From: Planctomycetota bacterium
GTDB lineage: Bacteria > Planctomycetota > Planctomycetia > Pirellulales > PLA5
Reading direction: 5' to 3'
Assembly (NCBI GenBank): GCA_003576845.1
Contig: QEVJ01000041.1
Coordinates: 1-42,652 of the forward strand
Length of the DNA stretch: 42,652 nucleotides
Shown in pieces: positions 1,927 to 27,311 of the stretch. How positions within the stretch are numbered: position 1 is the first letter of the stretch; each line of letters opens with the position of its first letter. Under the pieces are notes generated by a model. The model was not told the origin of the DNA. It saw only the letters and a program-made list of their open reading frames with translations, and searched no databases. The position numbers were made by a program, and so were the translations under genes.

Positions 1927-4050
1927 ATGCGAGCATTTCGTCTTTGCGCTCTGCTGTTTACAACGTTCGCGTGCGGATGCGGCTCAACGGAACCTGAAAC
2001 ACCGTCGACGCGCGCGTCGCAGAGCGTTACGGTCGCTCCATCAAAGCCCCAACCGCCGGAATGGAAAGTCCGCGGCGATTCGCTGGCAAACAAAGAGGAC
2101 TATCAGGGCGCGATCGCCATTTATGACGCGGCCCTCAAAGAATCGCCGGACAACGTCGAGATTCTTATCGCTCGTGCGGAAGCGCGGCAGTATTCGGATG
2201 ATATCGACGGAGCGTGGACGGATTGGCATGCCGTACTCAAGAGGTCGCCGCAAAATGGCCGCGCATGGTTGGGCGTAGGTGACTGCCTCATGATTCTCGG
2301 CAAACACGCAGAAGCGATTGCTGCCCTCGACGAAGCCATCGAAAACGGATCTCGCGACTATCGGACCTATCACACTCGTGGCGTGGCTCGCAATACGGCT
2401 GGGCAATTGCGCGAGGCACTTGCCGACTTTGATGAGGCGATCCGACTCAATCCCGAACGGACGAGCATCCGAGTCGAACGCGGCTATGTGTTCGCGCGCC
2501 TCGGCGAACACGAAAAGGCAATTGCGGATTTCACCGCGCACATCGACGCCGATCCGACCGATTCGCGGGCGTTGAGTTTTCGCGCTGTGTCCTACCAAGC
2601 AATTGGCGATGAGAAACGTGAAATTGCCGACATTGAAGAAGCAATTAGACGCACCCCGAACGAACCATACTATTGCAGCTATCTCGGGATTCTGTACGCG
2701 GATAAACGCGACTTTGCCGCCGCGGCAAAATGGCTGAATACCGCAATCGAACTGGACCTGAAGGCCCGACAATCCGTTGTACCTCCAATCGAGCCGAAGA
2801 CGCTGAGCGAGGATGATCTGGAATTCGGTCGCACTCAAGCTGCACAATTGCTGCGCGATCGACCAGTGCTCGCCGGGCATCTCCAAGATGGCGACATACT
2901 TTGGAACTGGATCGTGCGGCAGTTTGCCGGCGAGAGTGCGGGGTGCCGATGCCGTTGGAATCCCGAACCGCCGGGCAATTCGGATGGACAAGCGAGCGCG
3001 CCGGAGAACGGCGTAGGCGCCATCCAGGTGGCTCAATTCGATGGCGCCGAGGATGCTCGCGGACAACGGCTGACGTTCGATAGAGTGCTCTCAACGGTTG
3101 TCTTTGAGTGTTTCAACCACGCATCGTACGCCACATACGATGCAATTTGGAACCAAGTGTCGAAAGGGGAGATTGATCCGATTACATACGCCCGATTAGG
3201 CCTAGATACGGAGAACCAATCGGCGGTTCGTACGCGCCGCTTCTTTTGCAGCACCTATTTGGAATGGGCAAACGTCGAACAGTTTGCCGAAATTGATGCG
3301 CGCAACTGGTGCTTTAACGAATGGCTGCCTGCCGACTCAATTCACCGCAGCAACAAGCACCGTCAGGATTCGCGTTGGGAGCATTGGCTAATGGGTGGAA
3401 TTGAGTCCTTTGCCTACGGTGTATTCGAACGAGAAGGTCCCACGGCCGCGCTGAAGGTCCTGGATGCGGAACTTGCGAAACCAGGCCGCTCCGCCGCGAT
3501 CCGGGCGCAGGTCAATTATTTCCGCGCAAAAACCTTCGCCCAAACGGGTGATGAAAAGGCGGAACTAGCTGCACTCAACGAATCGATTCGGCTTAATCCC
3601 AAGCTGGCGGGAGCGTATTATCATCGCAGCGCAGTTTGGCGATCGACGGGCGATACCGGCAATGAGTTAGCTGACCTCGCAAAGTGCCTTGAGTTGGATC
3701 CCAATGAAGTGGGTGCCTACCACCGCCGAGCCGAGATTCTCGTGCTCGACGACGATCCGGCGATTCGTAACGGCAAGGCAGCGGTAGAGAACGCGACCAA
3801 AGCGTGCGAACTCACGAAATGGGAGGATGTCCCGTCGATCCTCATGCTCGCCGCCGCGCATGCCGAAGCCGGCAACCGCGACGAGGCCGTCAAATGGCAG
3901 AAAAAGGCCGCCGAGATGACGCCGGAAGCGAACCGCGGGCCGGTCGAGGCCGTCATTCCCATTTACGAAGCCGGCAAGACGCTTCGTGACGCTCCGCAGC
4001 CGCCGAGACCCGATGAGCAAGCAACCGGAGACGGCCGTCCCGCGAAATGA
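1927..4050 (+). CDS. TPR-repeat lipoprotein
   Basis: A 707-residue protein with a short lipoprotein-type signal (hydrophobic LCALLFTTFACGCGS; the first Cys follows TFA, an acceptable but not ideal lipobox). Tetratricopeptide repeats fill about residues 48-290 (for example DYQGAIAIYDAALKESPDN and REALADFDEAIRLNPER) and again about 525-680. They are separated by about 230 residues without clear repeats, with several Trp and Cys. A GGAGG sequence 5 nt before the ATG fixes the start. TPRs bind other proteins, so this is probably an envelope scaffold; no enzymatic motif is seen. Sampled codons are nearer 50% GC than the roughly 65% of neighbours (31 of 60 G+C in 2641-2700), which hints at a different origin. 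Confidence 0.75.
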   Translation: MRAFRLCALLFTTFACGCGSTEPETPSTRASQSVTVAPSKPQPPEWKVRGDSLANKEDYQGAIAIYDAALKESPDNVEILIARAEARQYSDDIDGAWTDWHAVLKRSPQNGRAWLGVGDCLMILGKHAEAIAALDEAIENGSRDYRTYHTRGVARNTAGQLREALADFDEAIRLNPERTSIRVERGYVFARLGEHEKAIADFTAHIDADPTDSRALSFRAVSYQAIGDEKREIADIEEAIRRTPNEPYYCSYLGILYADKRDFAAAAKWLNTAIELDLKARQSVVPPIEPKTLSEDDLEFGRTQAAQLLRDRPVLAGHLQDGDILWNWIVRQFAGESAGCRCRWNPEPPGNSDGQASAPENGVGAIQVAQFDGAEDARGQRLTFDRVLSTVVFECFNHASYATYDAIWNQVSKGEIDPITYARLGLDTENQSAVRTRRFFCSTYLEWANVEQFAEIDARNWCFNEWLPADSIHRSNKHRQDSRWEHWLMGGIESFAYGVFEREGPTAALKVLDAELAKPGRSAAIRAQVNYFRAKTFAQTGDEKAELAALNESIRLNPKLAGAYYHRSAVWRSTGDTGNELADLAKCLELDPNEVGAYHRRAEILVLDDDPAIRNGKAAVENATKACELTKWEDVPSILMLAAAHAEAGNRDEAVKWQKKAAEMTPEANRGPVEAVIPIYEAGKTLRDAPQPPRPDEQATGDGRPAK

Positions 4051-19507: not shown

Positions 19508-19627
19508 GATCAGCGCGTACAACGTCGCCCCGAATCCCAAAGCGACCGGCCGCAGGCAGGGCAGAATTCGCCGCCGCGTCGACCGCGGCAACGCATGGCG
19601 AACCGTCACTTCACGCCGCCGCGCCGG

Positions 19628-19656
19628 TTGCCCCCGCTCGTAAAGCCATATATCCT
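19628..19656 (+). promoter_or_regulatory. Candidate promoter for the giant kinase
   Basis: TTGCCC (19628-19633) and TATCCT (19651-19656) are spaced by 17 bases. Each matches sigma-70 consensus at four of six positions. The ATG is 235 nt downstream, and the leader would include the strong hairpin at 19685-19721. Confidence 0.3.
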
Positions 19657-19684
19657 AAAGTGCTTGCCCCGCGCGGCAGCACTT

Positions 19685-19721
19685 GCGAGTGGCACGCCGG
19701 ACCGAGTCCGGCAGCCCTCGC
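19685..19721. repeat. Strong hairpin in the kinase leader
   Basis: GCCGGAC-CGA-GTCCGGC (19696-19712) is a perfect 7-bp stem with a 3-nt loop. It is extended by GCGAG/CTCGC pairing and GGC/GCC on the outside. It may be a REP element or an mRNA structure that affects translation of the kinase; no T-tract follows. The rest of 19119-19890 holds only the receiver remnant. Confidence 0.6.
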
Positions 19722-19890
19722 ACGCCGGCTCGGTTGGGCGTCTTGCGGGCCAGGTCGCTGAGGCGAAGGCGGCGGCTTGGCTCGGTGTCCGTCCCGTTGC
19801 GGAATCGTTCCCCCAGTTAACGCGCCTCGCCGTTGCGCGTCCGTAACCGACGCTCGACGGGGTTCGTTCAAGCCAGGCTTTCGCTTCGCC

Positions 19891-22800
19891 ATGCACTACC
19901 GCCCCGGTGTCGAGATCGTGCCCGGCTACCGACTCCAGAAGATGCTGGGGCGCGGCGGGTTCGGCGAAGTCTGGCAGGCCGAAGGCCCCGGCCGCATTTC
20001 CGCCGCCGTCAAGATCATCGACAAGGTCGAAGAAAAGGCCGGCCGCAAGGAATTCCGCGCCCTCAAGCTGATCAAGGACCTCCGCCACCCGAACCTCGTC
20101 TCCATCACCGGGTTTTGGCTCAAGGACGCCGACGGGCGACTGCTCGATTCCGATGCCTACATCGACGACACCGGCGCCAGCCAGGTCCGGCCGAGCGAGC
20201 TGATCGTCGCGATGGACTTGTGCGAGAAGAGCCTGCTCGACCGGCTGGCCGAGTGTCGCAAAGGACTCAGCGACGACACGCCCGGCGGAATTCCGCTCGA
20301 CGAGCTGCTCGAATACATGGAGGCCGCCGCCAAGGCGATCGACTACCTCAATCTGCGGCACCAGATCCAGCACCGCGACATCAAGCCGCACAACATCATG
20401 ATCGTCGGCGGTTCGGCGCAGGTCTGCGACTTTGGCCTCGCCTCGGCGATCAGCACGGCCCGCACGTCGATGGGCGGGGCCGGTTCGCTGGCATACATGG
20501 CCCCGGAAGTCTACTCGACCAAGCTGCCGAGCAGCGCCACCGATCAATACAGTCTGGCGATCTCGTATTGCGAGCTGCGCACCGGCCGCTTGCCGCTTTC
20601 CGACGTCGAAAGCTTCGCCGTGCTCGACGATGCCAAGCGCAAGGGCATGCTCGATCTCTCGCTGCTCGACGAACGCGAGCGCGGCGCGATCCTGCGGGCC
20701 ACGTCGCTCGATCCGGCAACGCGGTTTCCCACCTGCTACGACATGGTGCTGGAACTGCGGCGGTCGATGAGCGCGGGCTTTTCCGTTTCCTCGCCGGCCC
20801 GGGCCGAACCGATCGCCGGCTATCAGCTCGAACGCAACCTCCGCGAACGCGACGGCGAACAGATTTGGGAAGCCGTCGACCCCGACGGATTGCACGTGCT
20901 GCTGGTCGTGCGGACGATTGCCGACGCGCCCGGAACGGCAAGCTGGGCGACGCTGTCGGCCGTCCGCGACGTAAGCCGAAGCCATCCGCGATTGGCCGAA
21001 ATCTACGAGTTCGCCTGCCTGAGCGCGACGGACAAGGTATTGCCCGCGCGTCTCTTCAAGCTGCCGAATCCGCCGGCCCCCGCGAAAACCGTCGTCGCAG
21101 GCCGAAAACTGCCGGCCAACTTGTCCGAGCGGCTTTCGCTCGGCGGAATGCCGATCAAGCGGTTGTTGTTGCTCTTGGGCGATCTGGCCGAAGCACTCGA
21201 TTTTCTCAACGCTCCGCAACACGACGTCGCCGGGAAGCCGGCCGGATTTCAGCACACGAACGTCCGGCCCGTCAACTTCCTGCTCGACGACGATCGCGCG
21301 GTCCTCGCGAACTTTGCCGGCGTGCAGATGCTCGAAGCGGATGAAGCCGAATTCGCCGCCGGCAAGCAATTCGCCGAAAGCGCCTTCACGCCGCCCGAGT
21401 TCGCCGCGGGCAAGATCACGCGCTGGTCCGACCAGTACATGCTCGCCGTGTCGTACTTGCAGCTTCGCACCGGCAAGCCCTCCGCAAGCTTGAGCGGATC
21501 GACCGGCACGGGCAAGCGGCCCGACGTGCGCTCGCGGCTCGACTTGAGCGAACTCAAGCCGCGCGAACGCGAGATCGTGGCGCAAGCCACCGACGCCGAT
21601 CCGCGCAAGCGCTACGCTTCGTGCCGCGAGTTTGCCGCAGCGCTCGGTCGAGCCTGGGACGAACTGCTCGCCGCCGAAGCGCCGCCGAAGCCGCCCGAGT
21701 CGCCAAAGCGAACGTCCTCGCCCGATGCCGCCGCCGCGACGATCGATGCCGCGGCCGTCGAGTCGGTGTCGCTTTCGAGCGTGCGCGATTCGGCGCCGTC
21801 GGTGCTCGAACCCACGCCGCGACCTGCGCCGCGGCACGGTGCGACGCTCGTCCCCTCGGCCATCGAGACACGCCCGCCGCAGGACACCAATCCGGAATAT
21901 CCCGCCCCGCCGCAGCGGATCGCCGATGTGCCGCACCGCGCTGCGAAACCGCCCAAGCAACGCGGGAAACCAGCGTCCGTTTCGCCCGCAGGCGCCGCCG
22001 CCGAATCCGTCGCGCCGTGGTGGCGATCTCGCGCCGCGATCCTGGCTGGAATTGCGGTGGCCGTCCTTGCCGTGGCGATTCCCATTGGCCTTATGAACCG
22101 CGGCGACGAGAACGAGGGCGGTGGCGGCGGGAACGGAGGCATGAACAAAAACGGCGGCGAAGAAAAGCCCGCCGTCGATCCGGCGATTGCCGCGATGCAG
22201 AGCGAGATCCAGCGCGATATCGCCGCCCGCAAGTACTCCGACGCATTCGACAAGCTCCAGGCCAATCGTCAAAAGCTCGGCGGCACGGGCGATACGCTCG
22301 CCGACGAGTTGAACGCGGCCTGGACGAGCCACGTGGCCCGGCAGGTCAAAGCCGCAAGCGACCGAAGCGACCCGCCGGCGCTCCAGGTCGCGGCGGCCGA
22401 CGCGGCCGTGCTGCTGGGGCGAATGCCCGACAGTGCTCAAGGTCGCGCGTCGCTCTTGGCGGCGGCGCAAGCGCTCGTCGGCACGTTCAAGAAGGACCTC
22501 GCCAAGCCCCAATTGCCCAAGCCCGAGGCCGAGCGGATCGCCGCGGGCAGCGACCACCTGCTCGTAACGCTCGGCGCGGTGAAGCTGCGGGACGCGACGG
22601 TGCTCGCGGCGCCGACCGCGGCCGCCCAACTCGTCAAGGCCCGCGCGTTGCTCCGCGCAGAAGACGCGGCCAAGGCCAAGGTGATCTTCGCGAAGCTGGA
22701 TCCGCAATCGTTCGCCGATCCGCGCGATCGAGCCGTATGCGCGACGCTGCAGGCGCTCGTCGACGAAGCCAAGTCCGTAAACCAGCCGGCGCTCGAATCG

Positions 22801-25800
22801 CTCCTCGCGAATAATCAGAACCGGCTCGATCCCTGGGAACTCGACAAGCTGAAGAAACAGATTGACTTCGTCAAAGGCGGCGAGCTCGCGAGACTCAAAG
22901 CGCGGTGGAACGCGCTCGTCGCCGAGCTGCGCCAGCAAGCATCGGACGCCGGACCGGCACTCGCCGCCCTTCGCCGGCGTCTCGCCGAACTGCCGACGAC
23001 GGACGTCGAGATTTGGGGATATCTCACCAACGCCGCGAACACCGCGGACTATCGCGTCTATCGCGGATTGCTGCTGTTGGCGACGCTGCGGCTCGATGGA
23101 CTCGCCGATGCCGAATATGCCCAGGCGCTCGAAGACGTGAGCGAACGGATCCGCTCCGAGCGCGTGGCGGACGACGCGGCGGCGCTCTGTGCCGCGGCCC
23201 TCGAACGCGCCTTGGCCATCGAATCGGCCCTGACCTACGCCGATGCCGCCAAAACGGACGAAGCCCAGCGGCTCGTGGGTCTGGCGCGGGCAACGGCCGA
23301 GTTCGCCGCGGCTAACTTCAACGAACACGCCGCGAAGGTCTCCGAGGCGCTCGCCAGCGCCGATCGCCGCCGCGTCGAGTTGGCCGTTGCCCAGTTGAGG
23401 GCGCTTCGCGATGCGGCCGACTTCGCCGCGCTTACGCTTTATGCGGCAGGTACCGAAAGCGTCGTGCGGGGAAATCCTGCGGCGGCCGCGCTGCGAACGG
23501 CGTCTGCCGTCGAATGCGTATTGCAAGAAGACAAACGGCCATCGCCCGCCGACCGTGACGCCCTCCGCGCCGGCGCAGCCGCAGCATCCGAGCCGGACAA
23601 GCATTACGTGGCGTTCGTCGCGGCGATTTCGCGGCAAGACACGCTTTCGGAGCGGCTCGCCGAAGCGGCCGATGCGATACAGGCGGCCTACGCGGCGACG
23701 GGCCCGCACTTGAAGTGGCGCGAGCACAACGCCCGCAAGAAGTTCGCCGTGGAACGCCTGGAAGCGGCGGCGAAGGCGCAAGGCCAAGACTCGCTCGACA
23801 AGCTCGCGCCGCCGTTCTACGCGCCGCAGAGCGACGCGGCGCGAAAATCGGCCGCCTGGCTCTCGACCGCGGCGTCGATGTTTCCGGCCGAACGCACCGT
23901 GCAGGACAATTCGACGTTGCGCCGGCTGCGGCAATTGCAGGCTCTCGCGTCGTACTACGCGAACCCATCGGATAAACCCACGGCGAAGCAGGTCGCAGCT
24001 TGGACGGGCGAGTTGCTCGCGATCCCGGGCGAAGGCGCCCCGCCGCTGCACGTGGTGCTCGTCCATGCCCGCAGCATTGCGGTTGGCGGCGACAAGAGCG
24101 CGACGGTGCTGGCCTATCGGCAGCTCTACGATGCGTGCCGTGTAGCGATTGCCAAGGGTGCGAATGCCGGTCCCGCGCCGAAGGACATCGACGAGTACGC
24201 GCTCGCACCGGCCCTCGCCGCGCTCGGTAGCGCCGACGAAGCGCTCAAGTTGCAAGGCGATCCGCGCCGCGCGGCCGCCCGTCTGTTCGCCGCGAGCGGG
24301 CGCTACGCGCACCTTTATCCCGTCGTGCAGACGCGGGTCCGCAAGCAGCTTGCCTCGGGAGGCAACAACAACACGGTCGCGAAGGCGGCCTTCGACTGGC
24401 TCGACGCGGCGGTGAAGCTCGACCCGACGCGCGCCGAGTATTGGTACGGCCGCGGTTATGCGTGCGACCTGCGGCTGGAGATGTCGTATGCCGAACGAGC
24501 AGCTCAAATGGAGCAGGACGCCGCCGCGGCGCTTGCCGCCGAGCGCGAGCCGAAGAACTTTCCCGCCGCCCACGGCTTGCGCGGACTGGCGCTCTATTAC
24601 CGGACGCTGACCGTCGCCGATTTTGCCAAAAAGCGCGAGACGCTCGCCAAAGCCGACGAGGCGTATCGGCAAGCGATCGCGATGTGCGAAGCGGTGCAGA
24701 AGTCGCCGGCGCTCGCCGCGGCGAATCCCGAGCTGCTCGAAGATTATCCGGCGTTTCTCGTCGGCCGCGGATTCGTGCTGTTGCTTTCGGCGAATTACGA
24801 AACCGACCCGGCGAAAGTCGAGGCGTCGCTGGCCCAAGCACTGAAGCTCGGCTTGAGCGTGACCGACGACACGACGCCGAGCGAAGCGCCGACGCACTTC
24901 TTCGGCATCCATCCCGAGACCGCCTATCACCTCGTCGGCAATGCGCTCGAAGATTACGGATGGCTCCTCAAGCAGCCCGAGTATTATCCGCTGGCCCTGA
25001 CGCAGTTCGCCAAGGCCGAAGGCGCGGCGACGCGATTCGAGAATCCCGCCGGCGCGAACCTGAGCGCGTTTTATCGCGGCCGTTGCCGCTATAAATTCGC
25101 CGTGGACGGATACGGCGCCTCCGCGGACGTGTTGGCGTCGGTTCCGGCCGCAAAAGACAAGGAGGCCGCTCGGCAAGCGCTCGTCGCCGATTTCCGCGCG
25201 AAAGCGGCAACCGCCCTCAAGGACGCCGCCGGCGAGATCGAACAATACATCGAGAACGCGGACAAGCAAGAGGCCGACCTCAACGAAGCGTATGCGTTCT
25301 TGGCGCAAATCCATCGCGCGAACGCGGCCGTCGACGAATACGACGATTGCATGGCCGCGTTCGACATGGCCGTCGAAGCGGCCGTGCGCAATGCCCATTC
25401 GCCCACCAATCGCCAGGAGTTGCTGCTCGAACAGGCCGCCGCCGCCGTCGAGTACGCGGGCCGCGCGAAGGCGGCCAAGGACAACGACCAGGTGATCGCC
25501 CGCTGCCGCAAGGCATACGCGCTCGCCAACTCGCTGGCCACGGACGAGAAGGCCGAACCGGTCGTGCGCGCGAAGGCCAATCTCGTCGCCGCCGACGCTC
25601 GCTGGACCGAGGGGTACGAGTATCGGTCCGACGTTCAGGCGGCGCTGGATCGCGCGATCGAACTGGCCAAATCCGCCAAGGACGACCTCGTGCTGGCCAC
25701 CGCGTACTGGAAGCGCGGCGAGCTCAACGTGGCTACTGCGACCCGAGTTTCGCCGCTCGGCGCGCCGCAACACGATCAACTCGTCGACGCCACGGCCGAC

Positions 25801-26184
25801 TATTTCGCGGCGATCGAAGCCAAGGCGCCGCTGTCGGCCAGCCGAATCACGCACGCCAACAGCCTCGCCCACGTGATGAGCGCCTTGGTGCGCTCGAATA
25901 TCGAGTATCCGAAGAAAGCGGCCTTGGCAAGCAACAAGAAGAAGTACGCCGACAAGGTCGTCGAAGTCGCCCGCCAAATTCCCAGCGAGTATGGCTCGCG
26001 GCTCGACGTCAGACAGCGCGTGCAAATGGCGGCGCTCGCGAATAGTCTCGTCGATCATGCGGCGGGATTGGCCCGCGACGAGTCGCTCAAGGAGACGTTG
26101 AAGCCGGCGATTCAAACCGCCGCCGACGCGGCCGTCGCCGATCTCGAAGCCTGGCCGAAGCGCACGCCGTCGATCGAACCGTAA
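19891..26184 (+). CDS. Giant membrane Ser/Thr kinase: kinase, pseudokinase, TM, TPR-like ectodomain
   Basis: The start at 19891 puts MHYRPGVEIVPGYRLQKMLG directly before the glycine loop GRGGFGEVW; a frame extends back to 19777 without family features. Of 2097 residues, about 12-295 are a complete Hanks-type kinase: loop G20-V27, AAVK Lys41, HRD 161-163, DFG starting at D180, APEVY. Residues about 305-590 form a second kinase-like fold beginning IAGYQLERNL, in which HRD is HTN (near 453) and DFG is NFA (near 473), so it should be catalytically dead. A Pro/Ala/Ser linker and one TM (about 711-735, AAILAGIAVAVLAVAIPIGL) follow. The last 1360 residues are Ala-rich helical, TPR/solenoid-like, presumably outside the membrane. 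It likely senses an envelope signal and phosphorylates cytoplasmic proteins. Confidence 0.87.
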   Translation: MHYRPGVEIVPGYRLQKMLGRGGFGEVWQAEGPGRISAAVKIIDKVEEKAGRKEFRALKLIKDLRHPNLVSITGFWLKDADGRLLDSDAYIDDTGASQVRPSELIVAMDLCEKSLLDRLAECRKGLSDDTPGGIPLDELLEYMEAAAKAIDYLNLRHQIQHRDIKPHNIMIVGGSAQVCDFGLASAISTARTSMGGAGSLAYMAPEVYSTKLPSSATDQYSLAISYCELRTGRLPLSDVESFAVLDDAKRKGMLDLSLLDERERGAILRATSLDPATRFPTCYDMVLELRRSMSAGFSVSSPARAEPIAGYQLERNLRERDGEQIWEAVDPDGLHVLLVVRTIADAPGTASWATLSAVRDVSRSHPRLAEIYEFACLSATDKVLPARLFKLPNPPAPAKTVVAGRKLPANLSERLSLGGMPIKRLLLLLGDLAEALDFLNAPQHDVAGKPAGFQHTNVRPVNFLLDDDRAVLANFAGVQMLEADEAEFAAGKQFAESAFTPPEFAAGKITRWSDQYMLAVSYLQLRTGKPSASLSGSTGTGKRPDVRSRLDLSELKPREREIVAQATDADPRKRYASCREFAAALGRAWDELLAAEAPPKPPESPKRTSSPDAAAATIDAAAVESVSLSSVRDSAPSVLEPTPRPAPRHGATLVPSAIETRPPQDTNPEYPAPPQRIADVPHRAAKPPKQRGKPASVSPAGAAAESVAPWWRSRAAILAGIAVAVLAVAIPIGLMNRGDENEGGGGGNGGMNKNGGEEKPAVDPAIAAMQSEIQRDIAARKYSDAFDKLQANRQKLGGTGDTLADELNAAWTSHVARQVKAASDRSDPPALQVAAADAAVLLGRMPDSAQGRASLLAAAQALVGTFKKDLAKPQLPKPEAERIAAGSDHLLVTLGAVKLRDATVLAAPTAAAQLVKARALLRAEDAAKAKVIFAKLDPQSFADPRDRAVCATLQALVDEAKSVNQPALESLLANNQNRLDPWELDKLKKQIDFVKGGELARLKARWNALVAELRQQASDAGPALAALRRRLAELPTTDVEIWGYLTNAANTADYRVYRGLLLLATLRLDGLADAEYAQALEDVSERIRSERVADDAAALCAAALERALAIESALTYADAAKTDEAQRLVGLARATAEFAAANFNEHAAKVSEALASADRRRVELAVAQLRALRDAADFAALTLYAAGTESVVRGNPAAAALRTASAVECVLQEDKRPSPADRDALRAGAAAASEPDKHYVAFVAAISRQDTLSERLAEAADAIQAAYAATGPHLKWREHNARKKFAVERLEAAAKAQGQDSLDKLAPPFYAPQSDAARKSAAWLSTAASMFPAERTVQDNSTLRRLRQLQALASYYANPSDKPTAKQVAAWTGELLAIPGEGAPPLHVVLVHARSIAVGGDKSATVLAYRQLYDACRVAIAKGANAGPAPKDIDEYALAPALAALGSADEALKLQGDPRRAAARLFAASGRYAHLYPVVQTRVRKQLASGGNNNTVAKAAFDWLDAAVKLDPTRAEYWYGRGYACDLRLEMSYAERAAQMEQDAAAALAAEREPKNFPAAHGLRGLALYYRTLTVADFAKKRETLAKADEAYRQAIAMCEAVQKSPALAAANPELLEDYPAFLVGRGFVLLLSANYETDPAKVEASLAQALKLGLSVTDDTTPSEAPTHFFGIHPETAYHLVGNALEDYGWLLKQPEYYPLALTQFAKAEGAATRFENPAGANLSAFYRGRCRYKFAVDGYGASADVLASVPAAKDKEAARQALVADFRAKAATALKDAAGEIEQYIENADKQEADLNEAYAFLAQIHRANAAVDEYDDCMAAFDMAVEAAVRNAHSPTNRQELLLEQAAAAVEYAGRAKAAKDNDQVIARCRKAYALANSLATDEKAEPVVRAKANLVAADARWTEGYEYRSDVQAALDRAIELAKSAKDDLVLATAYWKRGELNVATATRVSPLGAPQHDQLVDATADYFAAIEAKAPLSASRITHANSLAHVMSALVRSNIEYPKKAALASNKKKYADKVVEVARQIPSEYGSRLDVRQRVQMAALANSLVDHAAGLARDESLKETLKPAIQTAADAAVADLEAWPKRTPSIEP

Positions 26185-26252
26185 ATTCTCGATATGCTGT
26201 TGGTTTCCCCACGGTTTTCCGGCCGCCTCCTTCTCCAGAGAAACCCGACGCA

Positions 26253-27311
26253 ATGGATTCCGCCGCTCTCGATTTCTTCAAGCGCATCCTGGCAACCCCC
26301 AGTCCCTCGGGCTACGAAGGCCCCGTGCAGGCACTCGTCCGCGAATACGCCGCGGGATTCGCCGACCGCGTGACCACCGACGTGCACGGCAACGTCATCG
26401 CAGTAAAAAATCCCGACGCGCCGCTCCGCGTCATGCTCGCCGGGCATTGCGACCAGATCGGTCTGCTCGTCTCGTACGTCGATTCGGAAGGCTTCGTCTA
26501 CATTCAGACGATCGGCGGGTGGGACCCGATGCAATTGATCGGCCAGCGGCTCACCGTCTGGAGCCAAAACGGCCAGGTCGAAGGCGTCATCGCCCGCAAA
26601 CCGATCCACTTGCTCACCGAGGAAGAGCGTAAGCAAGTGCCCAAGATCAAGGACCTGTGGCTCGACATCGGCGCGAAGAACAAAGACGAGGCGCTCGCAC
26701 GGGTGCGGATCGGCGATCCGGTGACGCTCGCGCTCGGATACACGGAACTGCCCAACGACCGCGCCTGCTCGCCGGCCATGGACAACAAGTCGGGCCTGTG
26801 GGTCGTGATCGAAGCGCTGCGACGAGCCAGCCAGCGCGGCGTCCGTTGCGGGCTGTATGCCGTATCGACGGTCCAGGAAGAAATCGGCCTCCGCGGCGCG
26901 AAAACCAGCGCGCACACGATCAATCCGCACGTCGGCATCGCCGTGGACGTGACCCACGCGACCGATTGCCCCACGATCGACAAGAAAGAGCAAGGAGACG
27001 TGGCCCTGGGCGGCGGGCCGGTCGTCTATCGCGGGCCGAACATGAACCTCAAAGTGACCGAACGGCTCATCGAGGTTGCGGCGCGTTCCGAAATTCGCAT
27101 TCAACCTGCGGCGATCGGCCGCGCTACGCCCAACGACGCCAACATGCTCCAAATCAGCGGCGGTGGCGTCGCCACGGGACTCATCAGCATCCCCAATCGC
27201 TACATGCACAGCGCCGTCGAGATGATCTCGCTCGAAGATATCGACCGCGCGGCGGAGCTGATCGCCAACTTCGCCGTCGGGCTCTCGGGCGACGAGGATT
27301 TTACGCCGTGA
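26253..27311 (+). CDS. M42-family metallo-aminopeptidase
   Basis: The 352-residue protein fits the M42 family of two-metal aminopeptidases (FrvX/TET type), cytoplasmic enzymes that trim peptides. Features are PSPSGYEGPV near the start, the metal-binding segment MLAGHCDQIGLLV, SPAMDNKSG, the catalytic VQEEIGLRGA, VDVTHATDCP, GGGPVVYRGPNMN, and the C-terminal IPNRYMHSAVEM with a metal-ligand His. One oddity: the family usually has HxDE after the first His, but here it is HCDQ. The older label endoglucanase M for this family is not supported by sequence. It follows the kinase gene after 68 nt on the same strand. Confidence 0.87.
   Translation: MDSAALDFFKRILATPSPSGYEGPVQALVREYAAGFADRVTTDVHGNVIAVKNPDAPLRVMLAGHCDQIGLLVSYVDSEGFVYIQTIGGWDPMQLIGQRLTVWSQNGQVEGVIARKPIHLLTEEERKQVPKIKDLWLDIGAKNKDEALARVRIGDPVTLALGYTELPNDRACSPAMDNKSGLWVVIEALRRASQRGVRCGLYAVSTVQEEIGLRGAKTSAHTINPHVGIAVDVTHATDCPTIDKKEQGDVALGGGPVVYRGPNMNLKVTERLIEVAARSEIRIQPAAIGRATPNDANMLQISGGGVATGLISIPNRYMHSAVEMISLEDIDRAAELIANFAVGLSGDEDFTP

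Follow-up and report, generated by a model that had tools for sequence, protein, structure and literature searches.

A predicted receptor kinase of Pirellulales with a conserved pseudokinase domain directly behind its live kinase domain

The stretch of DNA analyzed here (the window) comprises 42,652 nucleotides of contig QEVJ01000041.1 from a Planctomycetota bacterium of the order Pirellulales. We studied one gene in it, at 19891..26184 on the + strand, which encodes a protein kinase of 2097 amino acids (aa). The translation starts with the ATG at 19891 and gives 2097 open codons, and an alignment indicated that the N-terminal MHYRPG is kept in a genome of the same genus and in the paralogues. 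The encoded protein consists of, in this order, a kinase domain (D1), a pseudokinase domain (D2), a linker, a transmembrane (TM) helix, and an ectodomain resembling tetratricopeptide repeats (TPR). A Pfam scan of the 2097-aa protein gave nothing significant beyond the Pkinase domain. The source genome (7.05 Mb) contains about 35 kinase genes by Pfam, two of which are of the kinase-pseudokinase type.

Live and dead kinase domains in one chain

D1 (residues 13-290; 19927..20760, + strand) has all the elements of a Hanks-type Ser/Thr kinase (STK): the Gly loop (GRGGFG, 20-25), the β3 Lys (K41), the αC Glu (E54), HRD (161-163), Asn (N168), DFG (180-182), and APE (204-206). Its residues 13-240 match the Pfam Pkinase family (PF00069) with an E-value of 1.4e-32. 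When the window protein was aligned with its six homologues, K41, E54, D163, K165, N168, and D180 were unchanged in all seven, as were the kinase motifs except for the Arg of HRD (HCD in three). The D1 model was superposed on PknB (1mru) by VIA-align with a Z-score of 27.6 and a root-mean-square deviation (rmsd) of 2.6 over 255 residues. Judged by these residues, D1 is an intact cytosolic Ser/Thr kinase.

The initial annotation, made from the DNA letters alone, had placed a second kinase fold at about residues 300-590 behind the live one, with HRD changed to HTN and DFG to NFA. Our results agree with both statements. D2 (residues ~308-595; 20812..21675, + strand) matches the protein's own D1 over the whole length of D2 (E ~1e-18), and a profile made from seven second domains found Mycobacterium tuberculosis PknB in the PDB (E 9e-14), followed by other kinases. 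In the AlphaFold2 model, D2 has the secondary structure of a bilobal kinase, with a predicted local distance difference test score (pLDDT) of mostly 70-94. The model of both domains together, for which the input alignment held five sequences, has kinase secondary structure in both regions (mean pLDDT 77.9). The VIA-align matches of this two-domain model concern D1 only, and the absence of D2 from them is not evidence against the fold. Pfam gave no match for D2 alone even at an E-value of 10, and the same was true of the D2 of a paralogue in the same genome; thus, we searched for relatives with D2 itself. Pfam-based kinome counts miss domains of this kind.

The residues needed for catalysis are replaced in D2. 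Val339 (20905..20907, + strand) occupies the position of the β3 Lys, HTN (455-457; 21253..21261, + strand) replaces HRD, so that the catalytic Asp has become Asn, and NFA (474-476; 21310..21318, + strand) replaces DFG, with the change from Asp to Asn fixed in all seven D2 domains. The Gly loop is degenerate, and none of the seven domains has retained the β3 Lys, the αC Glu, or the DFG Asp. The HRD Asp is lost in six, the homologue L037 retaining it (HTD). Most D2 domains share the pattern H-x-N-x-R-P-x-N. The C-lobe residues required for folding, namely the APE Glu, the αF Asp, and a late Arg (R574), are kept in all seven. With a kinase fold that has lost its catalytic, ATP-binding, and Mg-binding residues, D2 is by these criteria of residue and fold a pseudokinase.

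Some features could suggest that D2 keeps an unconventional catalytic or nucleotide-sensing activity, for example with R341 acting for the β3 Lys and with N462. The catalytic-loop N462 is kept in all seven domains and R341 in six, L037 has its catalytic Asp, and SelO and SidJ are active pseudokinases. Moreover, DYD pseudokinases, which have Arg for Lys and lack the αC Glu, have been modelled with ATP (PMC12599244). However, R341 lies two residues past the Lys position, not on it, and the losses listed above count against this idea. We consider such an activity improbable.

Distribution and conservation of D2

Among 396 Pirellulales genomes searched, D2 was found in seven genes from five genomes and four families; none of the D2 active sites is intact, and an intact one would have spoken against the initial annotation. 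The profile searches scored no more than a few candidates from each genome, and these counts are thus lower bounds. In addition to the window protein, six homologues combine a kinase, a pseudokinase, and a TM helix in this order; five of these also have a long arm, and the genomes that carry them include those of the same-genus Planctomycetota bacterium OFTM264 and of Pirellulales bacterium HOT.MB2.34. The sixth, L036 from Planctomycetales bacterium 10988, is a 789-aa protein with D1, D2, and a terminal TM helix, without an ectodomain; this form suggests that kinase-pseudokinase-TM is the conserved core. In a sample of 392 genomes from the phylum, D2 was present in the window genome only, the other matches being cross-hits of live kinases. 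In the sampled genomes D2 always lies directly behind a D1 kinase, and none of the scored loci outside the tandem held a domain with a better fit to D2 than to D1. A plasmid search gave single kinase matches only and no tandem. The paralogue mentioned above (G000:C179:57334-62520) is 38% identical to the window gene and has its own dead domain (HLN/NFS); a glycerophosphodiester phosphodiesterase gene precedes it.

In a maximum-likelihood tree, all seven D2 domains form one clade (support 100/99), which should be read with caution because of the long branches. Scored with a D2 profile from which its own family is left out, each D2 domain gains 56-112 bits over its score with a D1 profile. D2 would descend from a kinase domain in the same Pirellulales subfamily that was duplicated and then retained for a role in cis.

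We compared the rates of nonsynonymous and synonymous substitution (dN/dS) between the same-genus copies by the NG86 method; most synonymous distances are close to 1 or higher, and the ratios are thus approximate. The ratios were 0.12 and 0.09 for D2, 0.07 and 0.08 for D1, 0.29 and 0.13 for the ectodomain, and 0.32 and 0.58 for the linker (the 0.32 going with 53% identity). The identity of D2 between these copies is 78% and 86%, and that of the ectodomain is 53% and 70%. Substitution patterns of this sort indicate purifying selection on D2 (dN/dS ~0.1) that is nearly equal in strength to that on D1.

These values also bear on the idea that D2 is a functionless, decaying duplicate carried along with D1. 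The loss of the catalytic residues, the long branches in the tree, and the rare and patchy occurrence of D2 in the order would fit such a relic. It is contradicted by the low dN/dS and by an identity between same-genus copies above that of the ectodomain; furthermore, residues specific to D2 are fixed across families, and the change of the DFG Asp to Asn is a fixed pattern rather than scatter. On the dN/dS and the fixed residues we rejected decay, which we regard as very improbable.

An antisense frame at 19606-26253 (- strand; 2215 aa) mirrors the whole gene and could mislead gene callers, since all of its 2215 codons are open. Such openness is expected at a GC content of third codon positions (GC3) of about 0.8. 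All family matches are on the + frame, in which synonymous change far exceeds replacement change. We regard the antisense frame as an artefact of high GC3, and we see a negligible chance that the true gene lies in it or in some other frame.

Linker, transmembrane helix, and ectodomain

The kinase domains are followed by a fast-evolving cytoplasmic linker rich in Pro, Ala, and Ser (residues 600-713; 21688..22029, + strand) and a single TM helix (residues ~715-736; 22033..22098, + strand) at the hydropathy maximum of 2.66; the hydropathy profile has no second strong TM peak in the 2097-aa chain. The remainder is the ectodomain (residues 740-2097; 22108..26181, + strand), a TPR-like α-solenoid that is predicted to be periplasmic. 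It is about 1360 residues long and contains 23% Ala, and the 1100 residues modelled with AlphaFold2 (741-1840) form an all-α solenoid with a pLDDT of 74.5. The one TM helix and the huge Ala-rich helical ectodomain described in the initial annotation were thus both recovered. The C-terminal half of the model matches the TPR domain of LGN (4wnf; Z-score 18.7, rmsd 3.4, 239 residues), and other TPR superhelices also match. Pfam detects one weak TPR stretch (E 0.068), which suggests that the repeats are divergent.

Planctomycete STKs with one TM helix and periplasmic TPR arrays are a published layout (PMC11032199), and the window protein shares with them the N-terminal cytosolic Pkinase domain, the single TM helix, and the long C-terminal part made of TPR-like helical repeats. 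Its ectodomain is also homologous to those of single-kinase relatives in Pirellulales (hhalign probability 99.5). The solenoid is thus nothing unusual in the phylum; what has been added is D2. The consulted parts of PMC11032199 name no second, dead kinase domain; D2, being invisible to Pfam, would escape notice. We found no description of the live-dead layout in the open-licence literature on planctomycete pseudokinases or bacterial tandem kinases. As read from the sequences, a known receptor-kinase layout appears to have been extended by a conserved pseudokinase in cis that the literature searched does not describe.

One subfamily of TonB-dependent receptors adjoins large STKs in six Pirellulales genomes from five families. 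The receptor genes, which are ~35-44% identical to two queries, lie at L037:262-3018, L039:272-3052, L046:361-2760, L087:2164-4578, and L092:960-3725 (all - strand) and at L134:9317-12022 (+ strand). This arrangement hints that the periplasmic arm of some such kinases watches an outer-membrane barrel. The TonB-dependent receptor gene of the window genome (G000:C73) has no kinase nearby.

Related tandem kinases and the possible role of D2

Most discussion of paired live and dead kinase domains has concerned animal JAKs and the tandem kinase proteins of plants. The initial annotation had compared the protein with JAKs and had called its layout unusual for bacteria. The first comparison holds insofar as JAK/TYK2 also pairs a pseudokinase with an adjacent kinase in the same chain (JH2-JH1). 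In the PDB, the two-domain model indeed found its best Foldseek match in the TYK2 pseudokinase-kinase (4oli, E 9e-20), with both domains aligned. However, the order in JAKs is pseudokinase then kinase, whereas it is kinase then pseudokinase here. The template-modelling scores (TM-scores) against TYK2 are only 0.35-0.39 with an rmsd of 13.5, and the placement of the domains thus does not match. JAK/TYK2 is an animal Tyr kinase without a TM helix or ectodomain of its own, and FERM and SH2, typical of the JAK family, have no Pfam match in the window protein. The reversed order, the missing FERM and SH2, and the local ancestry place the protein outside the JAK family. Because the D2 domains cluster with local bacterial kinases, the resemblance to JAK is functional at most; the protein may work in a JAK-like way by analogy, not by homology. 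The JAK-reminiscent layout seems to have evolved independently in bacteria.

As for the second comparison, the tandem layout is rare but not unique. MAD6 of the MADS defence system (NF047741, PADLOC mad6) likewise has two kinase folds per chain, one of them dead. In MAD6 the dead domain comes first and the live one second, with an N-terminal NERD domain and a C-terminal P-loop part; a TPR arm was not seen. A single alignment of the PADLOC mad6 profile spans both kinase domains of the window protein; we rejected the assignment to MAD6, because the score is 116.5 bits against a cut-off of 460 and no NERD match was found. A related genome encodes a true MAD6 (L148:1-3444, - strand; 743 bits) with NERD, a dead domain (HRN/NFD), and a live domain (HCD/DFN), and a more distant MAD6-like protein (L149:1381-4677, + strand) has NERD, a dead domain (HRA), and a live domain (HRD/DFG). 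From these motifs, a dead kinase domain seems to be present in MAD6 itself, the published defence kinase. A role of the window protein in defence was also rejected: the PADLOC hits to PD-T4-6 and mad6 are cross-matches of kinase domains, and no defence cluster was found among the neighbouring genes in the window.

Another Pirellulales genus has triple-kinase proteins of the same kinase subfamily, L110:1131-8282 (- strand; 2384 aa) and L087:4618-7386 (+ strand; cut by the contig end), which also combine live and dead domains in tandem. Their dead domain sits between two live ones, whereas D2 lies behind one. The three domains have HGD, HCR or HAR (the catalytic Asp changed to Arg), and HGD; the middle one keeps the Lys and DFG and is 84% identical between the two genomes, and in L110 a TM helix and a C-terminal arm follow the third kinase. 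In the tree the middle domain is not part of the D2 clade, and its fit to D1 is better than that to D2; it thus apparently arose in a separate event. Live/dead kinase tandems in bacteria therefore occur in at least three forms, and the layout is rarer than the STK-TM-TPR one but not unique to the family studied here.

Two further comparisons were made. The window protein is not a PknB-type PASTA kinase, as it scores 86.8 bits against a cut-off of 450 with the kinase part only, and its ectodomain is helical. The bacterial pseudokinase groups ActPs1-3, GLW, DLHK, CP1, and DYD (PMC12599244) are, like D2, derived from bacterial STKs and have degraded motifs, and many are membrane-linked; by eye, the motif descriptions differ from D2 in their combination and in the live kinase in cis. 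The text of that review contains neither 'tandem' nor 'Planctomycet'.

On balance, we think it somewhat probable that the window protein is a single-pass receptor kinase of the inner membrane with a TPR-like periplasmic sensor, in which D1 is regulated or scaffolded in cis by D2. The TPR arm would lie in the periplasm and bind an envelope protein or peptide, and binding would alter, through the TM helix, how the cytosolic halves cluster or are oriented. D2 would be a non-catalytic partner that holds D1 auto-inhibited or competent for dimerization; upon release of D2 or dimerization, D1 would phosphorylate its own activation loop and its targets. Several observations weigh against this interpretation. 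The periplasmic side of the C-terminal part is a prediction. No structure shows an interface between D1 and D2: the predicted template-modelling score (pTM) of the two-domain model is 0.50, and the relative placement of the domains in it is thus uncertain. D2 occurs in only 5 of the 396 Pirellulales genomes, so that its role is dispensable for most relatives, and the form of L036 indicates that D2 does not require a sensor.

Within this interpretation, it is plausible that D2 regulates D1. Two facts make us prefer regulation to a plain scaffold: D1 is present in cis wherever D2 was found, and the constraint on the two domains is nearly equal. Its close rival is substrate docking, in which D2 would recruit a substrate or downstream protein and leave the activity of D1 untouched, as in EssB/YukC, a scaffolding pseudokinase (PMC12599244). 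Conserved residues specific to D2 (R511, W512, S513, Q524, and K529) lie at the catalytic loop and the αEF-αF turn, which are surfaces that kinases use in protein contacts. On the other hand, a mere scaffold could stand alone, yet D2 was never found without D1 in cis in the sampled genomes, and the synteny comparison gave no neighbouring substrate gene common to the homologue loci. We consider docking alone less probable than regulation. A fuller form of the regulatory interpretation is possible, if tentative: a dedicated D2 would control D1 allosterically, the TPR arm would pass an outside-in signal, and bacteria would have invented the JAK principle independently, on two or more occasions in Pirellulales and once more, with the order reversed, in MAD6. 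If a bacterial membrane receptor has such a conserved pair, control of a live kinase by a dead neighbour would prove to be a principle that has emerged repeatedly, and the 789-aa D1-D2-TM protein of Planctomycetales bacterium 10988 would be a compact system for testing it.

The neighbouring genes in the window encode a peptidase M42, a GHMP kinase, a DUF1501 protein, a cyclophilin, and others, and the M42 and GHMP genes are retained next to the kinase gene in the same genus only. A separate 707-aa protein in the window (1927-4050, + strand) consists mostly of clear Pfam TPR repeats, whereas the arm of the kinase is divergent and TPR-like.

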